From Terriglobus albidus (lineage in GTDB: Bacteria > Acidobacteriota > Terriglobia > Terriglobales > Acidobacteriaceae), in the NCBI RefSeq assembly GCF_025685425.1, contig NZ_JAGTAS010000053.1:1-64000 (forward strand): a stretch of DNA of 64,000 bases. The letters are read 5' to 3'. Below are positions 128-60,348 of this stretch, one piece after another (position 1 is the stretch's first letter; each line of letters opens with the position of its first letter). The position numbers and the translations under genes are program-made. The notes beneath the pieces are model-generated. The model was not told the origin of the DNA, ran no database searches, and worked only from the letters and a program-made list of their open reading frames with translations.

Positions 128-238
128 AGCATTTTCCCCGTTGCTGGGTATCCCGGAACGGGAGTACGGCGGTGTTTTCATTGCGGAAAACGCCCTTAGA
201 TGCGGATGCTCTGGATACACCTCCAGGAAAATGCTCTA
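125..238 (-). mobile_element. MITE-like element, copy A
   Basis: 114 bp including flanking TA at 125-126 and 237-238. The ends are inverted repeats (GAGCATTTTCC / GGAAAATGCTC) and the centre is the GTTTTC...GAAAAC hairpin of the family. It is in reverse orientation relative to copies B, C, E and F. The left TA belongs to the transposase stop codon and the right TA to the stop codon of the convergent glycosyltransferase gene, so a single ancestral CTAG probably held both stops. Confidence 0.85.
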
Positions 239-1420
239 GCGTTTTACTGCGAGCAGTTCCTGCAGGGTCTTTTCCCATTTCTCCCCATACTCTGACCAGC
301 CGCCCAGATGCCGTACGCGGTTGAGGGAGGCCTCGCGCATGCGCTGATGCATGCCGGGATCGTCGGCGATCCGCTGCATACGGTCGGCAAGAGATGCTGC
401 ATCGCGTACCGGAACGATAAAACCTTCGACACCGTCGGTATAGAGATCTTCACTCCCCGTATTGTGTGAGGCGATCACCGGGCATCCGCATGCCATTGCC
501 TGTGCCTGCACCAGGGCCAGACCTTCTTCAATGCTGGGAAGGACGAGCACGTGACTCTCCGACATCAGAGTGATGAGATCGCTCTGGGGAATAGCCCCCA
601 GCCACTCCACAGAGGCGTTCGGGAGCCGATCGAAAACCGGCTTGACCGCGGGGTCAATGGCTCCGGCGATACGAAGGCGTTTCTTGGGATGCTTGAGTTG
701 CGCGAACGCCTGCAGGAGGTAGGGAACTCCCTTGCGGAGGCTGACGGAGCCGGCGAAGAGAACGTCGAAGGAGTCAGTGGGAGGGTCGGCTACAGGGCGA
801 AATCGTTCCAACCGGACTCCGTACGGAATGAGCCTGAGTTTTTCCCGGGGAACTCCCATCTCAACAAATGAACGTACGGCAAAACTGGAAGGTACGCTGA
901 TCGCGTCTGCGAGCTCGTACTGCTCTTCTTCAATGGCTGTGACACGAAGGTCCGACGTTGATTCCCGTTCGACGCCCCAAATACGATCTTCTTCGGCAAC
1001 GATATTGCGCTGATAGCGGTGGTGCGATGATCCACGGTCACAGATGAAGACCCCGCCGGTCTGCTGTAGCAGGCGCCCGGTCCTGGTTCCGGAGCCAGAG
1101 ATGGCGATGAGGGCGTCTACCCTTGTGTCATGGCGCTGGAGCGCGCGCAGACGGCGCATGGTCCAGCGGTCGAAGAGCGCTGTATTTAGAAGCTGAAGTT
1201 GCTGCGCCACCGGCACCCGGTGGAGCTTGGACCGGCCGTAGAAGTAGGCCGGCGTGTGGATCCAGGGAAAGCTTTCAACGCGCTCCCTGGGCAGCCCCTC
1301 GCGTTTCAGCCGGGCCCAGGGCCAGGTGGAGTAGACCTTCTCCAGATGGCCTCGTTTCTGGAGTTCGGTTGCAAGATCGAAATGGTGAAAGACGCCGAAG
1401 ACAGTCTGAATGACTCGCAT
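236..1420 (-). CDS. GT4-type glycosyltransferase
   Basis: 394 residues with the GT-B layout of family 4 glycosyltransferases. The N-terminal half is a variable acceptor domain. The C-terminal half begins near residue 180 with SFAVRSFVEMGVP and IPYGV, continues with LFAGSVSLRKGVPYLL, and carries the donor-binding EX7E-type segment SIEEGLALVQAQAMACG near residue 295. It should transfer a sugar from a nucleotide-sugar donor to an envelope or secreted glycan; the acceptor cannot be read. It lies 24 bp downstream of aroA on the same strand and is probably co-transcribed. Its stop codon TAG is shared with repeat copy A. Confidence 0.85.
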   Translation of the reverse strand: MRVIQTVFGVFHHFDLATELQKRGHLEKVYSTWPWARLKREGLPRERVESFPWIHTPAYFYGRSKLHRVPVAQQLQLLNTALFDRWTMRRLRALQRHDTRVDALIAISGSGTRTGRLLQQTGGVFICDRGSSHHRYQRNIVAEEDRIWGVERESTSDLRVTAIEEEQYELADAISVPSSFAVRSFVEMGVPREKLRLIPYGVRLERFRPVADPPTDSFDVLFAGSVSLRKGVPYLLQAFAQLKHPKKRLRIAGAIDPAVKPVFDRLPNASVEWLGAIPQSDLITLMSESHVLVLPSIEEGLALVQAQAMACGCPVIASHNTGSEDLYTDGVEGFIVPVRDAASLADRMQRIADDPGMHQRMREASLNRVRHLGGWSEYGEKWEKTLQELLAVKR

Positions 1421-15429: not shown

Positions 15430-16560
15430 ATGGCAGTGCCAATCTCACAGATGCTGACGGTTGCAAGTTATGTCCTGAAGCAGAAGATCAAAGGCAACAA
15501 GCGGTATCCGCTGGTGCTGATGCTGGAGCCGTTGTTTCGCTGCAACCTTGCCTGTGCCGGTTGCGGAAAGATTCAATATCCCGCCCACATCCTCAAGACG
15601 GATCTCACCCCGGAGCAATGCTTTGCTGCCGTGGAAGAGTGCGGCGTGCCCATGGTCTCTATCCCGGGCGGTGAGCCGTTACTGCATCCGCAGATGCCAG
15701 AGATTGTTGCCGGTCTGGTGGCGCGCAAAAAGTACGTCTACATGTGCACCAACGCACTGCTGCTGAAGGAGAAGCTCCATCTCTTCACGCCGAGCAAGTA
15801 TCTCTCATTCTCGGTGCACGTCGACGGGCAGAAGGAGCACCACGATTTCGCTGTATGCCGCGAAGGCGGTCACGACCAGGCGATGGAAGGCGTTCGTGAA
15901 GCGGTGAAGCGCGGCTTCCGCGTGACGACGAACACGACTCTCTTCGATGGCGCCGATCCGAACTCGGTGCGGGCTCACTTTGATGAGCTCACGCGCGCAG
16001 GCGTTGAAAGCATGATGGTCTCGCCGGGTTATACCTACGACAAGGCGCCGGATCAGAGCCATTTCCTGGGTAAGGCGAAGTCGCGCCGCATGTTCCGCGC
16101 TATCCTGTCGAACCGCAAGAAAGAATGGCAGTTCAACTCGCACCCGCTCTTCCTCGAGTTCCTGATGGGGAAGATTAACTTTGAATGCACGCCCTGGGGA
16201 ATGCCGACCTATAACATCTTCGGTTGGCAGAAGCCCTGCTACCTGCTGCAGGATGGTTACGCCGATTCCTTCAAGGAACTGATGGAAGCCACCGAGTGGG
16301 CCAACTACGGCGCAAAGAGCGGCAATCCGCGTTGTGCGAACTGCATGGTGCATTCGGGGCATGAGGCTTCGGCGGTGAACTATGGCTTCGGATCGCTACG
16401 TGGTTTCATCCGTACGGCCAAGGCCTATATGAACGCTCTGTACTCCGATGCAGGAGCACAGAAACTGCTGGATGAGTGGCAGCCGGAACACCGCGGACCA
16501 CTGGTTCAGATCGCCACGACACCCGCCGCGCAAACCGGCGAACTGGTCTCAGGAGACTAA
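15430..16560 (+). CDS. hpnH: Hopanoid radical SAM protein HpnH
   Basis: 376 residues. Radical SAM cluster motif C38-x3-C42-x2-C45 (RCNLACAGCGKIQYP), followed by VSIPGGEPLLHP. HpnH attaches the 5'-deoxyadenosyl group to diploptene, giving adenosylhopane, the first step to extended hopanoids. A C-terminal cysteine pair (NPRCANCMVH) may hold another cluster or metal. Immediate downstream neighbour of shc and 4 bp before the next gene. Confidence 0.94.
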   Translation: MAVPISQMLTVASYVLKQKIKGNKRYPLVLMLEPLFRCNLACAGCGKIQYPAHILKTDLTPEQCFAAVEECGVPMVSIPGGEPLLHPQMPEIVAGLVARKKYVYMCTNALLLKEKLHLFTPSKYLSFSVHVDGQKEHHDFAVCREGGHDQAMEGVREAVKRGFRVTTNTTLFDGADPNSVRAHFDELTRAGVESMMVSPGYTYDKAPDQSHFLGKAKSRRMFRAILSNRKKEWQFNSHPLFLEFLMGKINFECTPWGMPTYNIFGWQKPCYLLQDGYADSFKELMEATEWANYGAKSGNPRCANCMVHSGHEASAVNYGFGSLRGFIRTAKAYMNALYSDAGAQKLLDEWQPEHRGPLVQIATTPAAQTGELVSGD

Positions 16561-16564
16561 GCCT

Positions 16565-17014
16565 ATGTCGACAGTGCAGCAGGAAGCGGGAAAGATCGAG
16601 CAATTGAAAGAGCATTCGGCTGATGAGCTCGAGGTTGTCGCCGGTCGTGAGCGGGAGAATCTTGAGGGCTGGATTCCGGCTCTCGCTTCCGATGATGAAG
16701 TGCGGGAAGCGTTGGAAAAGGCTTTCGATTATCGCGGCGATGTGACGATTACCAAGAAGGACGGCACGCTTATCGAGGGATATATCTTCGACCGCCGTTC
16801 GGGCACATCGTTGCATGACTCTTTCATTCGCATCATTCCGGCAAAGGGGGATCGCGCGAAGGTCAACGTCGCCTACAGCGATATCGCCGCCCTTGCATTT
16901 ACCGGCCGCGATGCCGCCGCCGGCAAGTCCTTTGAAGCCTGGGTCAAGAAATACTGGGAAAAGAAGGCTGCGGGGGAAACGAATATTGGAATCGAAGCGG
17001 AGAAGCTGGACTAG
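16565..17014 (+). CDS. Unknown 149-residue protein in the hopanoid locus
   Basis: 149 residues from ATG 16565, 4 bp after hpnH. An N-terminal acidic helical part (MSTVQQEAGKIEQLKEHSAD) is followed by VREALEKAFDYRGDVTITKKD and a compact beta-rich stretch (TLIEGYIFDRRS, FIRIIPAKG, VNVAYSDIAALAF) resembling a small Sm-like or SH3-like barrel. I do not recognise the family. Position between hpnH and hpnA suggests a hopanoid-related or membrane-related role. Its TAG stop uses the TA at which repeat copy B is inserted. Confidence 0.75.
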   Translation: MSTVQQEAGKIEQLKEHSADELEVVAGRERENLEGWIPALASDDEVREALEKAFDYRGDVTITKKDGTLIEGYIFDRRSGTSLHDSFIRIIPAKGDRAKVNVAYSDIAALAFTGRDAAAGKSFEAWVKKYWEKKAAGETNIGIEAEKLD

Positions 17015-17126
17015 AGCATTTCCCTGTAGGTGTAGAGTAGGGCTTCCGCATCTGTGAGCGTTTTCCGCAATGAAAACGCCGCTGCACTCCTCTTCCGGGA
17101 GACCTGGCAACAGGGAAAATGCTCTA
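17012..17126 (+). mobile_element. MITE-like element, copy B
   Basis: 115 bp with TA at both ends (17012-17013, 17125-17126). Terminal repeats GAGCATTTCCCTGTAG / CAACAGGGAAAATGCTC and central hairpin GTTTTCCGCAATGAAAAC. It splits the hopanoid locus between the 149 aa gene and hpnA. Without it the upstream stop would read TAA instead of TAG, so the insertion was silent. Confidence 0.88.
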
Positions 17127-26336: not shown

Positions 26337-29213
26337 ATGCCAAAGGCCTTTCAAGTCCGCATCACGGCGATTGCGCTTGCCCTGTTGACGGCTGCCGCCT
26401 GTGCGCTTGGCGTCGTAAATTTCCTGCGGGAGATCCATTTTGATCTGCCGACAGACGGCGTGTCCTGGACGGAGATTCAGGGTGGACTGAAGGCAGAGCG
26501 GGTTCCCGCTAACTCTCCCGCGCAACGAGCAGGTATTCGTCCGGGAGATGTGCTGATCGCCGTCGATGAGCATCCCACTCCCCGGGTGGCAACCCTCAAT
26601 CGCCAAATTTGGCGTCATGGTGTCTGGTCGCGGGGAACCTATTCGATCGTACGGAACGCAAAGGCTCGTTTCGACGTTCAGGTTATCTTTGAGCCTACTG
26701 ATCGTTCGATCAACCAGGGTATGCGGTTGATTGGCCTGGTGTATCTCGGCATCGGACTTTATGTGCTTTTCCGGCGCTGGACCGCGCCGGGGTCGATGCA
26801 CTTTTATCTCTTCTGTCTGGCCAGTTTTGTCTTGTACGACTTCAAGTACACGGGCGAGCTAAACACTCTGGACTGGACGGTCTTTTACGCGAATCTGCTG
26901 GCGCAGGCACTCCAGCCCGCACTTTTCCTGCACTTTGCCGTAAGCTTCGGCCGAAGCTCCAACAGCCTGCCGCGGCGCATCCTCTCTGCCGCGCTTTATA
27001 TTCCAGGTTTTGTGGTTGCGGCGCTGCAGATTATTGCCTTCACCACATGGTCCGCGACGGAACAGCTTCATCATCGGCTGGATCAGATCGCCATTGGCTA
27101 CCTGTCAGCGTTTTACGTTACGGCGGCGATTGTTTTCTACACTCGCTATCGCCGGGCACGGTCCGGCTTGGAGCGGCAACAACTCAAGTGGCTCTCGCGT
27201 GGAGCATTGATTGCTGTTATTCCGTTCACGCTGCTTTACACCATTCCTTACATGGCAGATTGGGATATCTGGCCGATCGTTGCGAAGCTTTCCGGCTTGT
27301 CTTTGGTATTTCTGCCGCTGACGTTCGCATGGGCGATTGTCCGTTATCGCCTGATGGACGTAGATCTTATCTTCAAGCGTGGCGTCACCTATACGCTCGC
27401 TACCGCCGGCCTGGTCGGTCTGTACTTTGCGGTGATCGCTGTCTCAGCAGAACTGGTGCATGCGCGGCTTCCCGGCCTGCGTGCCTGGGGTCTGGTGGCG
27501 GCAATCGTTGTTACGTCGCTGATCTTCGATCCATTGAAGAACATCATTCAGGCCCGCGTTGACAAACTCTTTGACCGCCGCCGCTTCGACTATCGCAGCA
27601 CGCTGGTCGATTTCGGCCGCAGCCTGTCTTCCCAGACCGATATCAACCTGCTGACGCGTTCGATTGTCGAGCGTCTGCAGCAGACGCTGCTGGTTACGCG
27701 CGTGGCGCTGTTTACATCAAGCGAGCCTGGAGCCCCGCTGCATCTTGCGGCATCGCATGGCCTGAATGATGTCCCGGTGAACGACCTTAGCTTCCTGCAC
27801 TTTTACGGGCAGGCGCGGCATCTCTTTCTGGAAACACCGCAGCATGCAATGCACCTTACAGAGACGCAGCAGGCCACTGCCGCCGCGCTCGACCTGAACT
27901 ACTACCTTGCCTGTACGGTTGGTGAGCCGGGAACGGGGGCACAGCGCACCATTGCTGTGATTGGGCTTGGGCGTACGTCACGCGGCGACTTTCTTTCGTC
28001 GGAAGATATCGAGGTACTTGAATCGCTGGCAGGGTATATCGGCATTGCGATTCAGAATGCTCAGCTCTATACACGCCTGCAGCGTCAGGTTACTGAGTTT
28101 GAACGGCTGAAGGAGTTCAACGAGAACATCGTTGAGTCCATCCATATCGGTATCTTTGCGGTCGATCTGGAAGATCGTATTGAAAGCTGGAACGCCGAGA
28201 TGGAGGTCATGTACGCGACACCACGTGTCTCTGCGCTCCGCCGCCATCTGAGTGAGGTCTTTCCTCCGGAGTTCCTCGGTGAATTCGAGCGGCTCAAGAC
28301 TGAAGCCACAACGCATACCTTGTACAAGTTCCGCCTGCCGACGCCGGCTGGTGAAGTTCGTACCGCCAATATCGCGATTGCACCCCTGCTGACACGTGAT
28401 TTTGTCCCTGTCGGCCGTATTGTGCTGGTGGATGACATTACCGACCGCGTCAACATGGAAGGTCAGCTTGCCCAGGCCGAAAAGCTGTCTTCCATTGGCC
28501 TACTGGCGGCCGGCATTGCCCACGAGGTTAACACGCCGTTGGCTGTGATCTCCTCGTATGCGCAGATGCTGACGAAACATGCCGGCGCCGATCCTCGTCT
28601 GTCCTCCATCCTGGAGAAGATCACGCAGCAGACCTTCCGTGCCTCAGAGATCGCGAATGGCCTTCTCAACTTCTCGCGCACCAGCACGACGGAGTTCACG
28701 CATCTGGACATCAATGTCGTAATACGGGACACGCTGGCTCTGCTGGAGCACCAGATGAAAACCTCGCGGATCAAATTGGAGATTGACCTGGCTCCAAATC
28801 TTCCTCTTATCCGCGGGAATCAAGGCAAACTTCAACAGGTGGCGCTAAATCTGCTGATGAACGCCAAGGACGCAATGTTCAATCGCGCCGAAGGCTGCCT
28901 GCACGTGCAGACCGAGGCTGTTGGGAACAATGTTGTGGTTCGTATCGGAGATAATGGCAGCGGAATTGAACCGTCACACCTGCACAAGATTTACGACCCA
29001 TTCTTTACCACCAAGCTCCAGCCTGCTGTCGGCCAGCGGAAGGGAACCGGCCTCGGCCTCTCCGTCACTTACGGCATCATGCAGGAGCACAATGGCAAGA
29101 TCGACGTTGAGAGTGAGCCTGGCGTCGGTACCGTTTTCATCCTAGAATTTCCTGCCTTGGCTGATGTGACACGGCTAGGCAACGAGGCCAGCGGACGAAC
29201 GATTCATGCCTGA
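26337..29213 (+). CDS. Membrane histidine kinase with PDZ, GAF and PAS domains
   Basis: 958 residues from ATG 26337 (a TTG at 26262 would add 25). Order: TM1; PDZ-like domain (GGLKAERVPANSPAQRAGIRP region, about 35-110) outside the membrane; about nine further membrane helices; a helix with FDRRRFDYRSTL; GAF domain (about 430-580); PAS domain (from about 600, FNENIVESIHIGIFAVDLED); HisKA with AAGIAHEVNTPLAVIS; HATPase with N, G1 (GDNGSGI), F (DPFFTT) and G2 (GTGLGLSV) boxes. It signals to the response regulator encoded next, which it overlaps by 8 bp. Confidence 0.92.
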   Translation: MPKAFQVRITAIALALLTAAACALGVVNFLREIHFDLPTDGVSWTEIQGGLKAERVPANSPAQRAGIRPGDVLIAVDEHPTPRVATLNRQIWRHGVWSRGTYSIVRNAKARFDVQVIFEPTDRSINQGMRLIGLVYLGIGLYVLFRRWTAPGSMHFYLFCLASFVLYDFKYTGELNTLDWTVFYANLLAQALQPALFLHFAVSFGRSSNSLPRRILSAALYIPGFVVAALQIIAFTTWSATEQLHHRLDQIAIGYLSAFYVTAAIVFYTRYRRARSGLERQQLKWLSRGALIAVIPFTLLYTIPYMADWDIWPIVAKLSGLSLVFLPLTFAWAIVRYRLMDVDLIFKRGVTYTLATAGLVGLYFAVIAVSAELVHARLPGLRAWGLVAAIVVTSLIFDPLKNIIQARVDKLFDRRRFDYRSTLVDFGRSLSSQTDINLLTRSIVERLQQTLLVTRVALFTSSEPGAPLHLAASHGLNDVPVNDLSFLHFYGQARHLFLETPQHAMHLTETQQATAAALDLNYYLACTVGEPGTGAQRTIAVIGLGRTSRGDFLSSEDIEVLESLAGYIGIAIQNAQLYTRLQRQVTEFERLKEFNENIVESIHIGIFAVDLEDRIESWNAEMEVMYATPRVSALRRHLSEVFPPEFLGEFERLKTEATTHTLYKFRLPTPAGEVRTANIAIAPLLTRDFVPVGRIVLVDDITDRVNMEGQLAQAEKLSSIGLLAAGIAHEVNTPLAVISSYAQMLTKHAGADPRLSSILEKITQQTFRASEIANGLLNFSRTSTTEFTHLDINVVIRDTLALLEHQMKTSRIKLEIDLAPNLPLIRGNQGKLQQVALNLLMNAKDAMFNRAEGCLHVQTEAVGNNVVVRIGDNGSGIEPSHLHKIYDPFFTTKLQPAVGQRKGTGLGLSVTYGIMQEHNGKIDVESEPGVGTVFILEFPALADVTRLGNEASGRTIHA

Positions 29214-30642
29214 AGCATTAACGATAAACCCGCCGGACGCGGGCTTTATGCTGCCTGCCGGCAGCGGACGTATTCTGATCATTGACGACGAAGCTGCCAT
29301 CCGCGACTCGCTGGAGACTCTTCTGACGTTAGAAGGGTTCACGGTCACCATGGCCGAGGAGGGAAACTCCGGCCTGGACCTGTTGGCACGCGAGGAGTTC
29401 GATCTTCTGCTTCTCGATCTGTCTCTGCCGGGCGAAAGCGGCATGGACCTGCTGCCCAGAATCAAGGCGTCCCATCCTCAACTTCCGGTCATCATGATCA
29501 CCGCGTACGGTGCGGTAGCGAACGTCGTTGAAGCGATTCGCCTGGGTGCGGAGAACTTTGTTCAGAAGCCCTGGGACAACGAAAAGCTGCTGGCTGACAT
29601 TCGCTCCGCAATCGGCAAGCGCCGCGCCGAGCAGGAAGTGCTGCAACTCCGTCGGACTCTCAAGCAGCGTTATCAGTTCACGAATATTGTGGGCAAGAGC
29701 GACGTGATGCTCAAGCTGCTCGATCTGGTGGCGCAAGTAGCCGCTTCGCGTTCTACTGTCCTGATCCATGGAGAGAGCGGCACGGGCAAGGAATTGATTG
29801 CTAAAGCAATCCATGCAAATTCGCCGCGGAAAGATAAGCCCTTCGTCCCTGTGAACGTGGGTGCTGTCCCCGCAGACCTGCTGGAATCAACGCTCTTCGG
29901 CCACTTGAAGGGAGCCTTTACCTCGGCAGTCGCTACAAAGAAGGGACTCTTTGAGGCTGCCAACGAGGGCACGCTCTTCCTGGATGAGATTGGCACCATG
30001 CCTCTTGAAACCCAGGCCAAGGTGCTCCGCGCACTGCAGGAGCGCAAGTTCATGCAACTCGGTGGAACACAGGAGATCTCCGTCGACGTTCGTATTCTGG
30101 CGGCAACGAACGTTGATCTGCAGCAGGCGGTGAAGGAGGGCCGCTTCCGCGAAGATCTCTTCTACCGCTTGAACGTCATCTCCGTGGAGCTTCCGCCGTT
30201 GCGCAACCGCCGTGAAGATATCCCATTGCTGGCACAACACTTCCTCAAGCGTTTCTCAGAGGAGAATGGCCTGCCGGAGCGCACGCTCTCCCCAGACGCA
30301 ATGCGGCTGGTCATGGACCACAGCTGGCCGGGAAATATCCGCGAGCTGGAAAATGCGATGGAGCGCGGTGTAGTTCTCTCAACCGGACCGCAGATTACGC
30401 CGGATCAGCTTCCGCCTCAACTGACTGGAAACACCTACTCGGCAGCATTGATGGAGCACGCTTCCTCTGCTAGCCTCGCCGAGATTATGGAAGAGATCGA
30501 GCGCCGTATCATTGGCGACCGGCTGGAGCGTTGCAATTGGAATCAGACCGAGGCTGCAGCCTTCTTCAAGATTCCGCTAAGCACGCTGAATCAGAAGATC
30601 AAACGCCTGAACATTGAGTTGAAGAAGCGCGGAAAAGAATAG
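29206..30642 (+). CDS. Sigma-54-dependent response regulator (NtrC family)
   Basis: 478 residues: receiver domain (about 22-140; LIIDDEA, phospho-acceptor in LLLLDLSLPG), AAA+ sigma-54 activator domain (about 160-400; Walker A GESGTGKE, Walker B LFLDEIGTMP, R-finger region REDLFYRLNVI), and a C-terminal Fis-type helix-turn-helix (NQTEAAAFFKIPLSTLNQKIKRL). The loop that touches sigma-54 reads GAFTSA instead of the usual GAFTGA. Translationally coupled to the kinase gene. The TAG stop uses the TA of repeat copy C. Confidence 0.93.
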   Translation: MPEALTINPPDAGFMLPAGSGRILIIDDEAAIRDSLETLLTLEGFTVTMAEEGNSGLDLLAREEFDLLLLDLSLPGESGMDLLPRIKASHPQLPVIMITAYGAVANVVEAIRLGAENFVQKPWDNEKLLADIRSAIGKRRAEQEVLQLRRTLKQRYQFTNIVGKSDVMLKLLDLVAQVAASRSTVLIHGESGTGKELIAKAIHANSPRKDKPFVPVNVGAVPADLLESTLFGHLKGAFTSAVATKKGLFEAANEGTLFLDEIGTMPLETQAKVLRALQERKFMQLGGTQEISVDVRILAATNVDLQQAVKEGRFREDLFYRLNVISVELPPLRNRREDIPLLAQHFLKRFSEENGLPERTLSPDAMRLVMDHSWPGNIRELENAMERGVVLSTGPQITPDQLPPQLTGNTYSAALMEHASSASLAEIMEEIERRIIGDRLERCNWNQTEAAAFFKIPLSTLNQKIKRLNIELKKRGKE

Positions 30643-30755
30643 AGCATTTTCCATGTAGGTGTAGCGTAGGGATTCCGCATCTATGGGCGTTTTACGTAAT
30701 GAAAACGCCGCTGGACTCCTCTTCCGAGATACCCAGCAACAGGGAGAAGGCTCTA
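30640..30755 (+). mobile_element. MITE-like element, copy C
   Basis: 116 bp with flanking TA (30640-30641, 30754-30755). Ends GAGCATTTTCCATGTAG / CAACAGGGAGAAGGCTC show a few substitutions from the consensus; the central hairpin has GTTTTACGTAATGAAAAC. The left TA belongs to the stop codon of the response regulator. It separates this gene from the convergent oxidase gene. Confidence 0.86.
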
Positions 30756-31604: not shown

Positions 31605-32222
31605 TTAGCCGGCATGGGCTTCCGTTGCAGAATGGGCCAGCTTCTCCCGGCGTACCATCTCGACGAAAAATTCATGCACACGGCGATCCGTGGAGAGCTC
31701 CGGATGGAAAGTGGCCGCCAGGATACGGCCTTCACGTACCAGGACCGGATCGCCGTTCCTCCGGGCCAGCACTTCGACGTCATTACCGACGGCGGCGATA
31801 CGAGGGGCACGGATGTAAACCATCTCCATCGGGCCGCCTGGCAGGGTTGTCTCGGTCTCCTGGATCGTGGAGTCTATCTGCCGGCCGTAGGCGTTGCGCT
31901 CTACCGTGGCATCCAGCACAGCCAACGACTTCTGCACCGGGTTGCGTACATCCTTGGCAAGCAGGATGGTTCCGGCACATGTGCCGAACGAAGGCTTTTG
32001 CCGGACGAAAGTGTCCAGGGCCGCGAAGAAGTTGTTCCGCTCCAGATGTTTCAGAAACGTCGTGGACTCACCGCCAGGCAGGATCAGGCCGTCCAGGGAA
32101 GCCAGATCTTCCGGCAGACGGACAAGCGGAGCATTTACACCAAGAGAACGAAGTACCTGGGCGTGTGCTTCAAACGCACCCTGCACGGCGAGCACACCGA
32201 TAGTCAGATGTTCAGAGGTCAT
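31605..32222 (-). CDS. pdxT: Pyridoxal 5'-phosphate synthase glutaminase subunit
   Basis: 205 residues. Class I glutaminase triad: Cys about 82 (FGTCAGTILLA) and His/Glu in FHPELS; the GGEST loop is at about 50-54. It supplies ammonia to PdxS for vitamin B6 synthesis. The start codon abuts the MITE-like element H, whose terminal repeat gives AGGAG with 10 nt spacing. A hairpin terminator after pdxS lies upstream, so pdxT probably depends on its own promoter. Confidence 0.95.
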   Translation of the reverse strand: MTSEHLTIGVLAVQGAFEAHAQVLRSLGVNAPLVRLPEDLASLDGLILPGGESTTFLKHLERNNFFAALDTFVRQKPSFGTCAGTILLAKDVRNPVQKSLAVLDATVERNAYGRQIDSTIQETETTLPGGPMEMVYIRAPRIAAVGNDVEVLARRNGDPVLVREGRILAATFHPELSTDRRVHEFFVEMVRREKLAHSATEAHAG

Positions 32223-32337
32223 TAGAGCAATTCTCCTAATACTGTAGCTCTGGATAAATCTTCGAATGCCGTTTTCTTCGAAGGAAAACGGCGCAAATAG
32301 CCAACACTCGCCCCAGACCTTTAGGAGAATTGCTCGA
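32223..32337 (-). mobile_element. MITE-like element, sister subfamily (copy H)
   Basis: Core 32225-32335. Perfect 15 bp terminal inverted repeat GAGCAATTCTCCTAA / TTAGGAGAATTGCTC and a central 9 bp hairpin GCCGTTTTC / GAAAACGGC. Same architecture and outer GAGCA(A/T)TT as copies A-G but different sequence between. Left flank TA, right flank GA (decayed). It lies between the pdxS terminator and the pdxT start codon. Confidence 0.75.
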
Positions 32338-36195: not shown

Positions 36196-37365
36196 ATGAC
36201 CGAAAGCCCATTCACAGACGTTGCCACCGCCATCGACGAGATCAAAGCCGGCCGCATGGTCGTGGTCGTCGATGATGAGGACCGAGAGAACGAAGGCGAT
36301 CTGACTCTGGCGGCAGAATATGTAACACCAGAGGCAATCAACTTCATGGCGATGTATGGCCGTGGTCTCATCTGTCTCACGTTGACCGAGGAGCGTGCGG
36401 ACTACCTGCGTCTGTTGCCGATGACACGGCAAAATACTTCGCGGTTCGGTACGGCATTCACAGAGAGTATCGAGGCCCGTGAAGGGGTCACGACGGGGAT
36501 TTCGGCGCACGATCGTGCGCACACCATCAAAGTTGCGATCGATCCGGCTTCGACAGCGCAGGACCTTGCACGTCCCGGTCATGTCTTTCCGCTGCGCGCC
36601 CGGAAAGGCGGAGTTCTGGTCCGTGCAGGGCAGACTGAGGCGTCAGTGGACCTCGCGCGCATGGCCGGTCTCATTCCCGCCGGCGTGATCTGCGAGATCA
36701 TGAACGACGACGGCACTATGGCCCGGGTTCCAGACCTGGTCGAGTTCTGCAAGCTGCACAACCTGAAGATGGTGACCGTCGCAGAGCTGATCCGTTATCG
36801 TCTGCGGCATGAGCGCTCGGTACGTCGAGTTGCCGAGACGGTGCTTTCGACGAAGCACGGCGAGTTTCAGATGATCGCCTACGAGAGCGAGACGGACCCT
36901 ACGGAGTCGCACGTCGCCCTGGTGCTCGGAGACGTAGCCAGCCCGGATAAACCGGTACTCGTGCGCGTGCATTCACACAACCTGGTGGAAGATGTCTTCG
37001 GTGCGATGATCCCAGACTGTTCCCATTCTGTGGAATATGCGCTGCAACGTATTTCCGAGGCGGGAGCAGGCGCGTTGGTCTATCTGCACAATGGATCGCG
37101 CGGTTTTGGCATCGACAGCACCGTCTCTCCCGCTCGGATCGTCACCCAACGGGAACCGAATGCCATGCCCGGTGGAGATCCGTACGCTGAGCGTCATCAG
37201 CGCACGCTGCGTCAGACAGGTTTGGGCGGACAGATCCTCTCCGATCTGGGAATTCACAAGATTCGACTGCTGACGAATCGGCCGACCCACGCGCCGGCGC
37301 TGCAGGGTTTCGGCGTAGAGATCGTGGAGCAGATACCGCTGCGGCCTTCTGTCGCGCAGCGCTGA
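36196..37365 (+). CDS. ribB: RibBA-like protein with a degenerate cyclohydrolase domain
   Basis: 389 residues. Residues 1-205 form an intact 3,4-dihydroxy-2-butanone-4-phosphate synthase ([52 protein letters not shown]), making the four-carbon unit of riboflavin. Residues 210-389 align with GTP cyclohydrolase II (VLVRVHSHN...[29 protein letters not shown]) but two of the three zinc cysteines are missing: HSEC is HSHN and RCDCG is IPDCS. The catalytic RQEGRGIGL is HNGSRGFGI. So only the first activity is expected; a separate ribA should exist elsewhere. Confidence 0.9.
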
Positions 37366-39925: not shown

Positions 39926-41001
39926 TGCACACCTCCGTCGTGGTATCCCTGAAGCCGTGCCAGTTCCTTGCGCGTGATCTTCAGAAACGAGCCGTGGCGC
40001 AAACCTGCTGGAAACTCCATCATGTCTTTCCCATCACGCCAGTGCTCCAGGTCGCGCGAGAAGGTCGAGCCATAGTGCTGGCCCGGCGACTGGTAATGGT
40101 CGTAGTAGACAACCCATCCGTGGTCGATCGCAAAGCCCGCAGGTCCTTCTGACCCGGGTTCTGTAAAAGCTTCCGTCACGTCGCTCCAGGGACCTTCCAT
40201 GGAGGCTCCGCTGGCCATGCGGATGTGTTTTCCGTCCGGCTCCTTCCGTTCGTCCTTGAAGACGAGGCGGTAACTACCGTTCGCTTTGCTTCCATCGGAA
40301 GGAAGTAACGTAGCATCAATCACGTTGTAGCCAGGATCGAAGAAAAGCTTCGCCGGGGTGAATGTACGGAAGTCGCGGGTCGTGGTGGCATAGATACGGT
40401 GGTTCAGGCCGTTCTTGTCGTAGTGCGATTGCGGAAAGCGGCCGGGAACGGTGCTGGACCAGAAGATCAGCCAGTGGCGCTTTGCTTCATCCCAATAAAG
40501 CGCTGGAGCCCAGACATTGAGTGCGGTTGGCTCGTTGGCCATGACTTCAAGCTGGCGATGAGGAGTCCAGTGCAGCAGATCCTTGGATTCGGAGTACCCG
40601 GCTACGGCCGGTTGCCGCCAGCCCCACGTCCACATCATGCGGAAGCCGCCGTTCGGAGCGCGTTGCAGGAAAGGATCGCGCATCAGTTCACCTGACTGCG
40701 CCGGTGCAATCACAGGCCTGCCGTCATTGATCAGCTTCCAGTGCCAGCCATCTTCGCTGACAGCGAAGTAGACACCGTTCTGGCCGTTGTTCTTGAAACC
40801 GGCGAAGAGCCATGGACCTTCGGAGGATTGAGCCAGGCAGGAAGTTGCAAGCAGAAGCAGGGCAGCAGCTAGAGCATTTTTCCTGTTGTTAGGTATCCCG
40901 GAAGAGGAGTGCAGCGGCGTTTTCATTGCGGAAAATGCCCATAAATACGGAAGCCCTACTCTACATCTACAGAAAAAATGCGCTAGTCGAACGAACGCCA
41001 T
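39922..41001 (-). CDS. GH43-like secreted glycoside hydrolase with a MITE inside its signal peptide
   Basis: 359 residues from ATG 41001, or 334 from ATG 40926, which lies inside the inserted element. Five-bladed propeller features: MRDPFLQ (likely general base Asp), ALNVWAPALYWDE, NVIDATLLP and GSEGPAGF (likely acid Glu). Element D (40870-40985) interrupts the secretion signal. Deleting it with one TA gives MAFVRLAAALLLLATSCLAQ, a normal signal sequence. The net insertion is 114 bp, a multiple of three, and stays open, so the protein is either 38 residues longer in its signal or starts in the element (MKTPLHSSSGIPNNRKNAL). Export may be changed. Confidence 0.8.
   Translation of the reverse strand: MAFVRLAHFFCRCRVGLPYLWAFSAMKTPLHSSSGIPNNRKNALAAALLLLATSCLAQSSEGPWLFAGFKNNGQNGVYFAVSEDGWHWKLINDGRPVIAPAQSGELMRDPFLQRAPNGGFRMMWTWGWRQPAVAGYSESKDLLHWTPHRQLEVMANEPTALNVWAPALYWDEAKRHWLIFWSSTVPGRFPQSHYDKNGLNHRIYATTTRDFRTFTPAKLFFDPGYNVIDATLLPSDGSKANGSYRLVFKDERKEPDGKHIRMASGASMEGPWSDVTEAFTEPGSEGPAGFAIDHGWVVYYDHYQSPGQHYGSTFSRDLEHWRDGKDMMEFPAGLRHGSFLKITRKELARLQGYHDGGVQ
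40870..40985 (-). mobile_element. MITE-like element, copy D (inside a coding region)
   Basis: 116 bp with TA at 40870-40871 and 40984-40985. Ends GAGCATTTTTCCTGTTG / ACAGAAAAAATGCGC; one end carries GCGC instead of GCTC. It is inserted in the signal-peptide codons of the GH43-like gene. Exact removal with one TA restores the reading frame, which directly supports a TA target-site duplication. Confidence 0.9.
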
Positions 41002-41702: not shown

Positions 41703-41818
41703 TAGGGCATCTTTCCTGTAGGTGTAGAGTAGGGCTTCCGCGTCTAGGGGCGTTTTCCGCAATGAAAACGCCGCTACACTCCTCTTCCGGGATACCCAGC
41801 GACAGGGAAAATGCTCTA
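41703..41818 (+). mobile_element. MITE-like element, copy E
   Basis: 116 bp with TA at 41703-41704 and 41817-41818. Left end GGGCATCTTTCCTGTAG is diverged; right end CGACAGGGAAAATGCTC is intact. Central hairpin GGCGTTTTC-CGCAAT-GAAAACGCC is perfect. It ends 12 bp before the start codon of the CNNM gene and so may form part of its leader or promoter region. Confidence 0.88.
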
Positions 41819-46429: not shown

Positions 46430-46480
46430 CCGCATAGCTACTTTTCGGTTCCTTCAGGGTTGAACTCGGTAGCTATGCGG
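46430..46480 (+). promoter_or_regulatory. 12 bp inverted repeat covering the CAP gene start codon
   Basis: CCGCATAGCTAC (46430-46441) and GTAGCTATGCGG (46469-46480) are perfect complements separated by 27 nt. The ATG at 46475 is inside the second arm and the only purine-rich stretch (CAGGG) is in the loop, so the mRNA could mask its own start. Alternatively a DNA operator. Confidence 0.5.
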
Positions 46481-47218
46481 TTTCGTTTTTTACTGGCGTT
46501 TGTGGTTTTGACTCTCTTTGCTTCTCACCTGCAAGCTCAGAGTTCTCTTGCGGAGCGATATCTTTTTCAGGCTCTGAATTCTGAAAGAGCACAAGCAGGT
46601 CTGCCGCAACTGCGCTGGGATCGCCAGCTCTATGTTGCGGCTCGCTATCATGCGGAGCAAATGGTTCGGGCAGGAGCCATCAGTCATCAGTTCCAGGGAG
46701 AGGCGGACCTCACGGAACGCGTCGCTTCAGCTGGGGCACATGTCTCTGTCGTCGCGGAGAATGTGGCCATGGCTTCCACGGCCGTGATGATCCACGATGG
46801 CTGGATGCATTCGCCCCATCACCGGGAAAACATTCTGGATCCGAGAGTCACCTCTGTAGCCATTGCTGTCATGCCGCGGGGCAATGCGCTTTATGCAGTA
46901 GAAGACTTCAGCCGCGATGTCCCCACGCTCTCGCTCTCGCAGCAGGAAAACGCTGTCATCGAAAGTCTGCGGGCGCTGCGTCTGAATGCCGCAGCGAGTG
47001 CTGCGGCCCGGGCGAACTGTGCGGTCGACTCCGGCGTTGTGCAGGGAAGCCGTCCACTGTTTGTGATGCGCTGGACCGCCACGGACCTGAGCGCCGTACC
47101 GGAACAACTTAAGGCTCGCCTGCGGCAGCGCAGATACAACAGCGCTGAGGTAGGAGCATGTTCCGTCCATGGCGCCGGCGGTTTTACGACATACCGGGTC
47201 GCGGTGCTGATGTACTAG
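46475..47218 (+). CDS. Secreted CAP-domain protein (SCP/PR1 family)
   Basis: 247 residues from ATG 46475 (a TTG at 46460 also opens the frame). Sec signal peptide MRFRFLLAFVVLTLFASHLQAQ. CAP domain at about 25-150: LNSERAQAGLPQLRWDRQLYVAARYHAEQM, then AENVAMA and GWMHSPHHRENILDP, holding the two conserved His and Glu. The last 100 residues are not recognised. Bacterial CAP proteins are extracellular or periplasmic with varied roles. Followed after 10 bp by repeat copy F. Confidence 0.88.
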   Translation: MRFRFLLAFVVLTLFASHLQAQSSLAERYLFQALNSERAQAGLPQLRWDRQLYVAARYHAEQMVRAGAISHQFQGEADLTERVASAGAHVSVVAENVAMASTAVMIHDGWMHSPHHRENILDPRVTSVAIAVMPRGNALYAVEDFSRDVPTLSLSQQENAVIESLRALRLNAAASAAARANCAVDSGVVQGSRPLFVMRWTATDLSAVPEQLKARLRQRRYNSAEVGACSVHGAGGFTTYRVAVLMY

Positions 47219-47228
47219 TTGATTCCGT

Positions 47229-47342
47229 TGGAGCATTTCCCTGCAGATGTAGAGTAGGGCTTCCTCATCTATGGGCGTTTTCCGCAATGAAAACGCCCCT
47301 GCACGTTACTTCCGGAATACCCACCAACAGGGAAATGCTCTA
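47229..47342 (+). mobile_element. MITE-like element, copy F
   Basis: 114 bp. Left flank TG (changed from TA) at 47229-47230 and TA at 47341-47342. Ends GAGCATTTCCCTGCAG / CAACAGGGAAATGCTC; central hairpin GGCGTTTTC-CGCAAT-GAAAACGCC. Located between the CAP gene and tRNA-Asn. Confidence 0.87.
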
Positions 47343-60232: not shown

Positions 60233-60348
60233 TAGAGCATTTTCCCTGTTGCCGGGTAACCCGGAAAAGGCGTGCAGCGGCGTTTTCATCGTGGAAAACG
60301 CCCATAAATGTAGAATCCTGCGCTACAAACTACAGGGAAAATGCTCTA
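60233..60348 (-). mobile_element. MITE-like element, copy G
   Basis: 116 bp with TA at 60233-60234 and 60347-60348. Ends GAGCATTTTCCCTGTTG / TACAGGGAAAATGCTC are near-perfect inverted repeats; central hairpin GCGTTTTC...GAAAACGC has one change. Located 9 bp after the topoisomerase stop. Confidence 0.89.

Follow-up and report, generated by a model that had tools for sequence, protein, structure and literature searches.

A MITE-like repeat probably inserted in frame into the signal peptide of an exported protein in an ancestor of several acidobacterial species

Within the 64,000-nucleotide stretch of Terriglobus albidus DNA analysed here (the window), one copy of a short, high-copy repeat lies inside the signal-peptide region of a gene for an exported protein. 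The favoured reading, to which we assign a probability of about 0.82, is that a MITE-like element entered this signal peptide before the divergence of at least four acidobacterial species and has been read through from the old ATG since then. A 112-bp, non-autonomous, near-palindromic repeat with a TA target would have entered a CTA leucine codon where the basic start gives way to the hydrophobic core; as the element and the duplicated TA together make up 38 codons free of stops, the protein would still be made from the old ATG. The n-region would have grown from 5 to 42 residues, with the element adding the basic residues RKN directly before the core, and the core and cleavage region would be the same as in the insert-free form, leaving the mature enzyme unchanged. 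The insert would be tolerated because the n-region is removed after export. Initiation at the old ATG followed by normal export and cleavage is what this arrangement predicts, and a TA-specific DDE transposase is the presumed mobilising enzyme.

The host gene of the element (element D) is the open reading frame (ORF) at 41001-39922 on the minus strand, which comprises 359 codons with the insert. It starts at an ATG (40999-41001) that is shared with the insert-free orthologue described below, and its N-terminus reads ATGGCGTTCGTTCGAC. On the minus strand, ATGGCGTTCGTTCGAC is followed by the element with its flanking TAs (TA + 112 bp + TA; 40985-40870) and then by GCTGCTGCC. As had been predicted, the element adds a net 114 bp (38 codons) without a stop in the host frame, and excision of the 112 bp together with one TA yields MAFVRLAAALLLLATSCLAQ in frame with the enzyme. 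The upstream TA copy (40984-40985) forms bases 2-3 of codon 6, CTA (Leu), and the downstream copy lies at 40870-40871. The element carries its own ATG (40924-40926), which reads MKTPLHSSSGIPNNRKN. The hydrophobic core, ALAAALLLLA (40846-40875), which precedes TSCLAQSS, was located by computed hydropathy, as were all signal-peptide cores in this work, the n-region being taken as everything before the most hydrophobic ten residues. In the D host, residue 43 and the first base of codon 44 are derived from the element. The original prediction called the enzyme GH43-like. Weak matches to Pfam PF04616 (25.3 bits, cut-off 32.2) and to the alpha-arabinofuranosidase model NF052546 of NCBIfam (92 bits, cut-off 500) agree with this name, but both fall under their cut-offs, and "GH43-like" is therefore used here as a sub-threshold assignment. 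In a phmmer search, no PDB sequence matched the host protein at E≤0.01. A role of the element as a hairpin at the mRNA start was not indicated by folding, as the 191-nt region examined was no more stable than its shuffles (z -0.28).

Orthologues of the D host were sought in 61 genomes, including that of the window (G000). The whole query was matched in G002, G012, and G015 (91-92% identity), in which the insert has equal length, no stop, and no indel; the internal ATG and the element-derived RKN before the core, both noted originally, are kept in all four carriers. Since the insert is of the same length and open in G000, G002, G012, and G015, the insertion is old. The orthologue in G017 (78% identity) aligns from residue 45 on only. 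Its N-terminus, MAPVRFAAALLLLFTSACLAQSGPW, has the same start and the same core without the 38 residues and fits the reconstruction MAFVRLAAALLLLATSCLAQSSEGPW, so that the normal signal expected after removal of the element exists in a living relative. The comparison of close orthologues proposed as a check thus returned a gene that is empty at exactly the insertion codon. Two outcomes had been named as speaking against the insertion, namely an insert-free orthologue devoid of the reconstructed signal and the 38 residues as an ancestral feature. Neither was found: the G017 protein has the signal, and the 38 residues are missing in G017, in the distant relatives G016 and G035, and in paralogues in G000, G002, and G015, which have short, ordinary N-termini. 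Among 78 loci from the best 80 of 204 relatives, the full gene was present only in the G012 and G015 records. One part of the earlier claim did not hold, that the locus proves a TA duplication. At the insertion codon G017 reads GTTCGATTTGCTGCTGCC, with TTT where G000 has CTA and the other three carriers have CTG (Leu); the upstream TA is accordingly TG in G002, G012, and G015, and the downstream TA is unchanged in all four carriers. As the empty site of G017 has no TA, a duplication is compatible with the D locus yet invisible there, and it is at other loci that it can be seen.

That element D is a repeat and not a chance sequence follows from its relatives nearby. By ungapped matching, seven copies were recognised in the window. 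They fall into two families that match each other in inverted orientation, and their identity to the reference copy is 73-86%; a profile search found eight copies in the window and 23 in the 222-kb contig to which it belongs. Three of them lie at stop codons: 125-238, detected by sequence matching, at that of gene 236-1420 (-); 17012-17126 at that of gene 16448-17014 (+), filled in G002 and empty in G017; and 30640-30755 at that of gene 29206-30642 (+), absent in G002 and G012 and also in G017, where the region has diverged. A divergent copy at 32223-32335 directly precedes the ATG of gene 31605-32222 (-) and is empty in G002, G012, and G017. The profile placed further copies at 47230-47342, near the stop codon of gene 46460-47218 (+), and at 60233-60348. 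At 41703-41818, at a distance of 717 bp from D, a copy is present in G000 and G012 whose site is empty in G002 and G015, a pattern at odds with the apparent species tree, which suggests that one TA was re-used or that copies were lost.

On a larger scale, the exact 14-base end GGAAAATGCTCTAG occurs 114, 61, 43, and 39 times in G000, G002, G012, and G015, respectively. The remaining 15 of the 19 genomes of the genus have at most one occurrence each, and the reversed control pattern was found 0-1 times. Within these 19 genomes, the high-copy family is thus restricted to the four carriers of D. The profile matched 102 times in the 1.02 Mb scanned of G000 and 46 times in the 0.64 Mb scanned of G002 (148 in 1.66 Mb), which by extrapolation would correspond to some 600 copies in the whole of G000 and some 460 in G002. 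G017 has no exact end genome-wide and no profile match in 240 kb. These figures bear on the reverse reading of the D locus, that the 38 residues were present ancestrally and disappeared in G017. Just one close insert-free orthologue is available, which leaves this reading some room, but it is extremely improbable, given that the insert is a repeat abundant in the carriers and not found in G017, and that paralogues and more distant relatives have short N-termini as well.

The anatomy and mobility of the family are those of a MITE. The copies are short (112-bp core), numerous, and without a transposase gene. They have terminal inverted repeats, with the consensus ends GAGCATTTTCC...GGAAAATGCTC, a terminal stem in the DNA fold, and profile matches on both strands; copy D itself folds with an unremarkable energy (z -1.12). 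A filled TA...TA faces an empty single TA at many orthologous loci, including a clean single CTAG in G002, G012, and G015 at the empty site of C28:336568 (see below). The TA duplication and the preference for YTAR are those of an IS630/Tc1-mariner-type target; IS630 itself prefers CTAG targets. None of the five DDE_3 loci carried a transposase with the ends of the family, and none of the six inspected of 15 DDE_Tnp_1 loci in G002 had both ends, a lone right-end-like match without the left end being present at one DDE_Tnp_1 locus (L101). A search with DUF4096 for a transposase partner gave no match, and no paired solo ends 400-3500 bp apart occurred in the 1.66 Mb. The autonomous partner may have been lost or lie beyond the sample, and one is not strictly required of a MITE. 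Since no transposase with these ends was found, the label rests on anatomy and mobility: the family behaves like an IS630-type MITE whose mobiliser was not found in the stretches and loci inspected. With this qualification, the idea of a MITE within the start of an exported enzyme is supported, as a TA-flanked member of a high-copy family whose 38 codons are kept in three relatives. Separately, head-to-tail tandem arrays with a period of about 114 bp were observed at L116:1992-2337, L118:1863-2208, and G000:C39:268862-269103, as if copies inserted at the TA of other copies.

Element D is not the only copy within a signal peptide. The second case, C28:336568 in G000, affects an outer-membrane beta-barrel protein (OMP_b-brl_4, PF25183, E 8.8e-218), which reads MVRDMLLAKIARS, 38 residues of insert, and LGSAAFMSLFMVVSALGQ, in the same reading frame as D and with the same ATG. 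Its orthologues in G002, G012, and G015 are insert-free, with MVRYMLLKKIARSLGSAAFASLF(T/M)AVSALGQ. This copy comes from the first sample, which was chosen without regard to open frames; together with D, at least 2 of the 83 usable copies in unselected stretches thus lie in signal peptides with insert-free orthologues. The other two cases stand outside this unbiased count because they come from 20 loci picked for long open frames. In the third, G002:5703260, the protein reads MRLA, 38 residues, and IATALLFLWTAVAVAQQ (residue boundaries at split codons are approximate) in a frame other than that of D and without an ATG, and the insert-free orthologues begin with MRFIIATALLF... in G000, MRLAIAIATALL... 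in G012, and MRLAISTVLLL... in G015. In the fourth, G002:1144204, MKKTF is followed by 38 residues and VRRIRNRAILVAAAVAVPVV, and the insert-free orthologues read MKKTFVRRIRNRALL (G000), MKKTFVHRIRNRALL (G012), and MKKTFVQRIRNRALL (G015). In all four cases the hydrophobic core and the sequence downstream align with the insert-free form, and according to hydropathy the n-region is 2-18 residues long without the insert and 42-54 with it.

The internal ATG (40926) could itself be the working start of the D host, the upstream 25 codons having become a leader, in which case the element would act as a portable start and n-region. The ATG and the basic RKN before the core are present in all four carriers, the resulting n-region of 17 residues (K+R = 3) would be nearer to an ordinary one than 42 residues, and the same ATG recurs in the outer-membrane protein C28:336568. 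However, the ATG is the family consensus in the D frame and hence no proof of selection for a start. It is replaced by AAG at G002:1144204, where the reading frame of the old ATG is nonetheless intact, so that translation there is likely to begin at the old ATG; the frame used at G002:5703260 has no ATG at all. By eye, no purine-rich ribosome site precedes the internal ATG, though the site of the old ATG is weak too. Nor does divergence help, since 6 of 20 residues differ between G000 and G002 before the ATG and 4 of 18 from the ATG on (counted by eye), which does not tell leader from coding sequence. Taken together, use of the internal ATG as the start appears unlikely, and read-through from the old ATG is preferred.

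Full-length copies of the family are unusually open. Among 44 copies, the two commonest net lengths are 114 bp (19/44) and 113 bp (15/44). Of the 19 full-length copies of 114 bp, 18 are open in the D frame, 17 in its counterpart on the opposite strand, 14 in the frame used at G002:5703260, and none in the fourth non-TAN combination, compared with 0.19-0.24 open per frame in shuffles; three or more frames are open in 12/19 copies versus 3.8% of shuffles. The host frame is kept in 8 of 18 usable genic copies (7/10 in the first sample, 1/8 in the replicate), which is insufficient to claim a general frame bias. Three of the seven in-frame copies of the first sample (C28:115107, C28:325600, and C28:355783) lie in doubtful ORFs, with no Pfam match for those at C28:115107 and C28:355783, and several genic copies of the replicate are located at gene ends. 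In-frame copies outside signal peptides include one in a MacB/FtsX permease (C54:171591), whose site is empty in G002 and G017, and an 81-bp derivative in an SLT transglycosylase (C28:14542). Constraint on the inserted peptide of D appears weak at most, as its dN/dS is 0.64-0.93 among G002, G012, and G015 and 0.33-0.48 for G000 versus these three, against 0.04-0.10 for the mature part. The values call for caution because the G000 copy and those of its relatives differ in subfamily history.

This difference in history was apparent from a FastTree phylogeny of 88 copies, in which the D elements of G002, G012, and G015 group as one clade (support 0.968) nested in the beta subfamily (0.993), and D of G000 falls outside beta, in the alpha subfamily. 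Monophyly of the four D copies was rejected by the AU (p = 0.019) and KH (0.039) tests but not by SH (0.18). For the orthologous pair 17012 / G002:204535, the corresponding values were 0.0455, 0.14, and 0.31, and monophyly of two other orthologous pairs was not rejected. The topology tests covered 41 of the 88 copies and 116 columns with fast searches, and since one constrained tree was slightly better than the unconstrained one, the tree searches were not exhaustive. Vertical descent of the sequence of a single D insertion without exchange is thus disfavoured. One way to account for this is two separate insertions into one TA with identical orientation, an alpha element in the lineage of G000 and a beta element in the ancestor of G002, G012, and G015. 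The position of the three relatives within beta, the AU and KH results, and the pattern at 41703-41818, with its hint of TA re-use, favour such a history; the SH result does not, and a double strike on one TA in one orientation is unlikely without a strong hot spot. Moreover, the ends of all four D copies agree in states that are scarce elsewhere outside beta (T13 in 3/79 copies, T12 in 18/79, and A105 in 13/79), T13 being found in none of the five beta copies, and the alpha states of the G000 copy are confined to its interior (28-85), making it a mosaic. Two insertions are accordingly regarded as doubtful. From the distribution of these states along the element, it was probably inserted once, long ago, the interior of the G000 copy being overwritten later by gene conversion from another copy.

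With regard to the family as a whole, D is of a minority type, since the common site of insertion is the TA of a stop codon. Of the 83 usable copies, 35 have a target TA that forms the first two bases of a TAA or TAG stop (ORFs of at least 150 codons, taken from ORF calls rather than annotation). The other 65 of the 148 copies were excluded because they were not flanked on both sides by a TA within 3 bases, scored <55, or overlapped, and at least one orthologous site (17012 / G002:204535) was counted in both genomes. Occupancy was 35/723 for stop TAs (4.8%), compared with 7/1216 for TAs up to 50 bases downstream (0.6%), 16/1369 for those up to 50 bases upstream, 7/4069 for other intergenic TAs, and 18/37992 inside ORFs. 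The odds ratio for stop TAs was 11.2 against all other intergenic TAs (p 4e-19) and 8.8 against downstream TAs (p 8e-10), with 17.4 and 9.0, respectively, in the first sample and 7.0 and 7.8 in the replicate; against intergenic TAs, the preference was stable over ORF cut-offs of 100-350 codons (odds ratio 10-15). When only YTAR targets were compared, the odds ratio was 5.1 (p 5.5e-7) for the whole set and 2.1 (p 0.19) for the replicate alone, a weaker signal, not significant in the replicate, which indicates that the stop preference is partly one of sequence context. The element normally begins with G after the TA, and in most cases the interrupted stop is therefore restored as TAG. A single element terminates both of two convergent genes at G002:179945 and again at G002:214627; of these four stops, one is TAA. 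It is conceivable, though the balance is against it, that the family is doubly adapted to coding DNA: it would prefer the TAs of stop codons, restoring TAG on either strand by its terminal G and so preserving the ends of convergent genes, and would also be a stop-free module of 38 codons that recurrently becomes an n-region, sometimes with its own ATG and basic residues, the genic copies being homogenised by gene conversion. The stop preference could reflect either a transposase with recognition of gene ends or a neutral niche, and lends itself to testing. MIRU elements of mycobacteria also insert at stop and start codons. As a side observation, the copy at G000:C39:167013-167123 lies 13 codons short of the end of a 1007-codon ORF and cuts it with a TAG of the element; the tail of this ORF, CPCGSGKKYKKCHG, resembles a SecA C-terminus.

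In-frame MITEs, including one in a signal peptide, were already known. The Rickettsia palindromic elements (RPE) are likewise described as short palindromic in-frame inserts in protein genes, and TA borders on both sides are described for one or more RPE types (PMC10969869, PMC2229807). In these accounts, compared here by description, RPE are about 150 bp long and rickettsial, whereas the present elements have 112 bp, TA borders, and hosts among the Acidobacteriaceae. Insertion of the RPE kind was found at the four signal-peptide loci, in the MacB/FtsX permease, and in the SLT transglycosylase, but the present family differs in recurring at signal peptides and in lying most often at stop codons. 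In YPO1552 of Yersinia, the RU-2 / Yersinia palindromic sequence is described as a MITE that encodes residues 1-30, the signal sequences of relatives being unrelated (Delihas 2007); here, in contrast, the element lies inside a pre-existing signal peptide, with insert-free orthologues at four loci. Some copies of QMITE1 and QMITE2 of Coxiella burnetii supply or overlap the stop codons of functional genes (PMC5896051). QMITEs are larger, with target duplications of 2-3 or 7-11 nt, and functional genes are hit at their 3' ends; no per-site enrichment test was met in the portions of that account considered. According to the description in PMC2229807, RUP of Streptococcus pneumoniae resembles the present family in size (107 bp) and TA insertion and differs in having stops in all six frames, whereas several frames are open here. 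The transposase of ISY100, of the IS630/Tc1 family, is reported to duplicate its TA target (PMC2170065), and no member of the IS630 family with the ends of the present repeat was found at the five DDE_3 loci. Among the matches listed in the open-access literature, neither the present repeat family, nor repeated insertion of a MITE family into signal peptides with insert-free orthologues, nor a measured enrichment of MITEs at stop codons was met. At the four loci, signal peptides with and without a mobile insert of 38 residues between start and core form natural before-and-after pairs, which amount to a natural experiment on the n-region length that Sec tolerates and on how mobile DNA becomes protein.

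No Rfam family reached its gathering score over element D. Elsewhere in the window, Rfam V_AS9, a Vibrio antisense RNA, matched 36302-36408 (-) with 54 bits, inside ORF 36196-37365, which we take to be a ribB/ribA-like gene; the match probably reflects a conserved coding stretch rather than an RNA.
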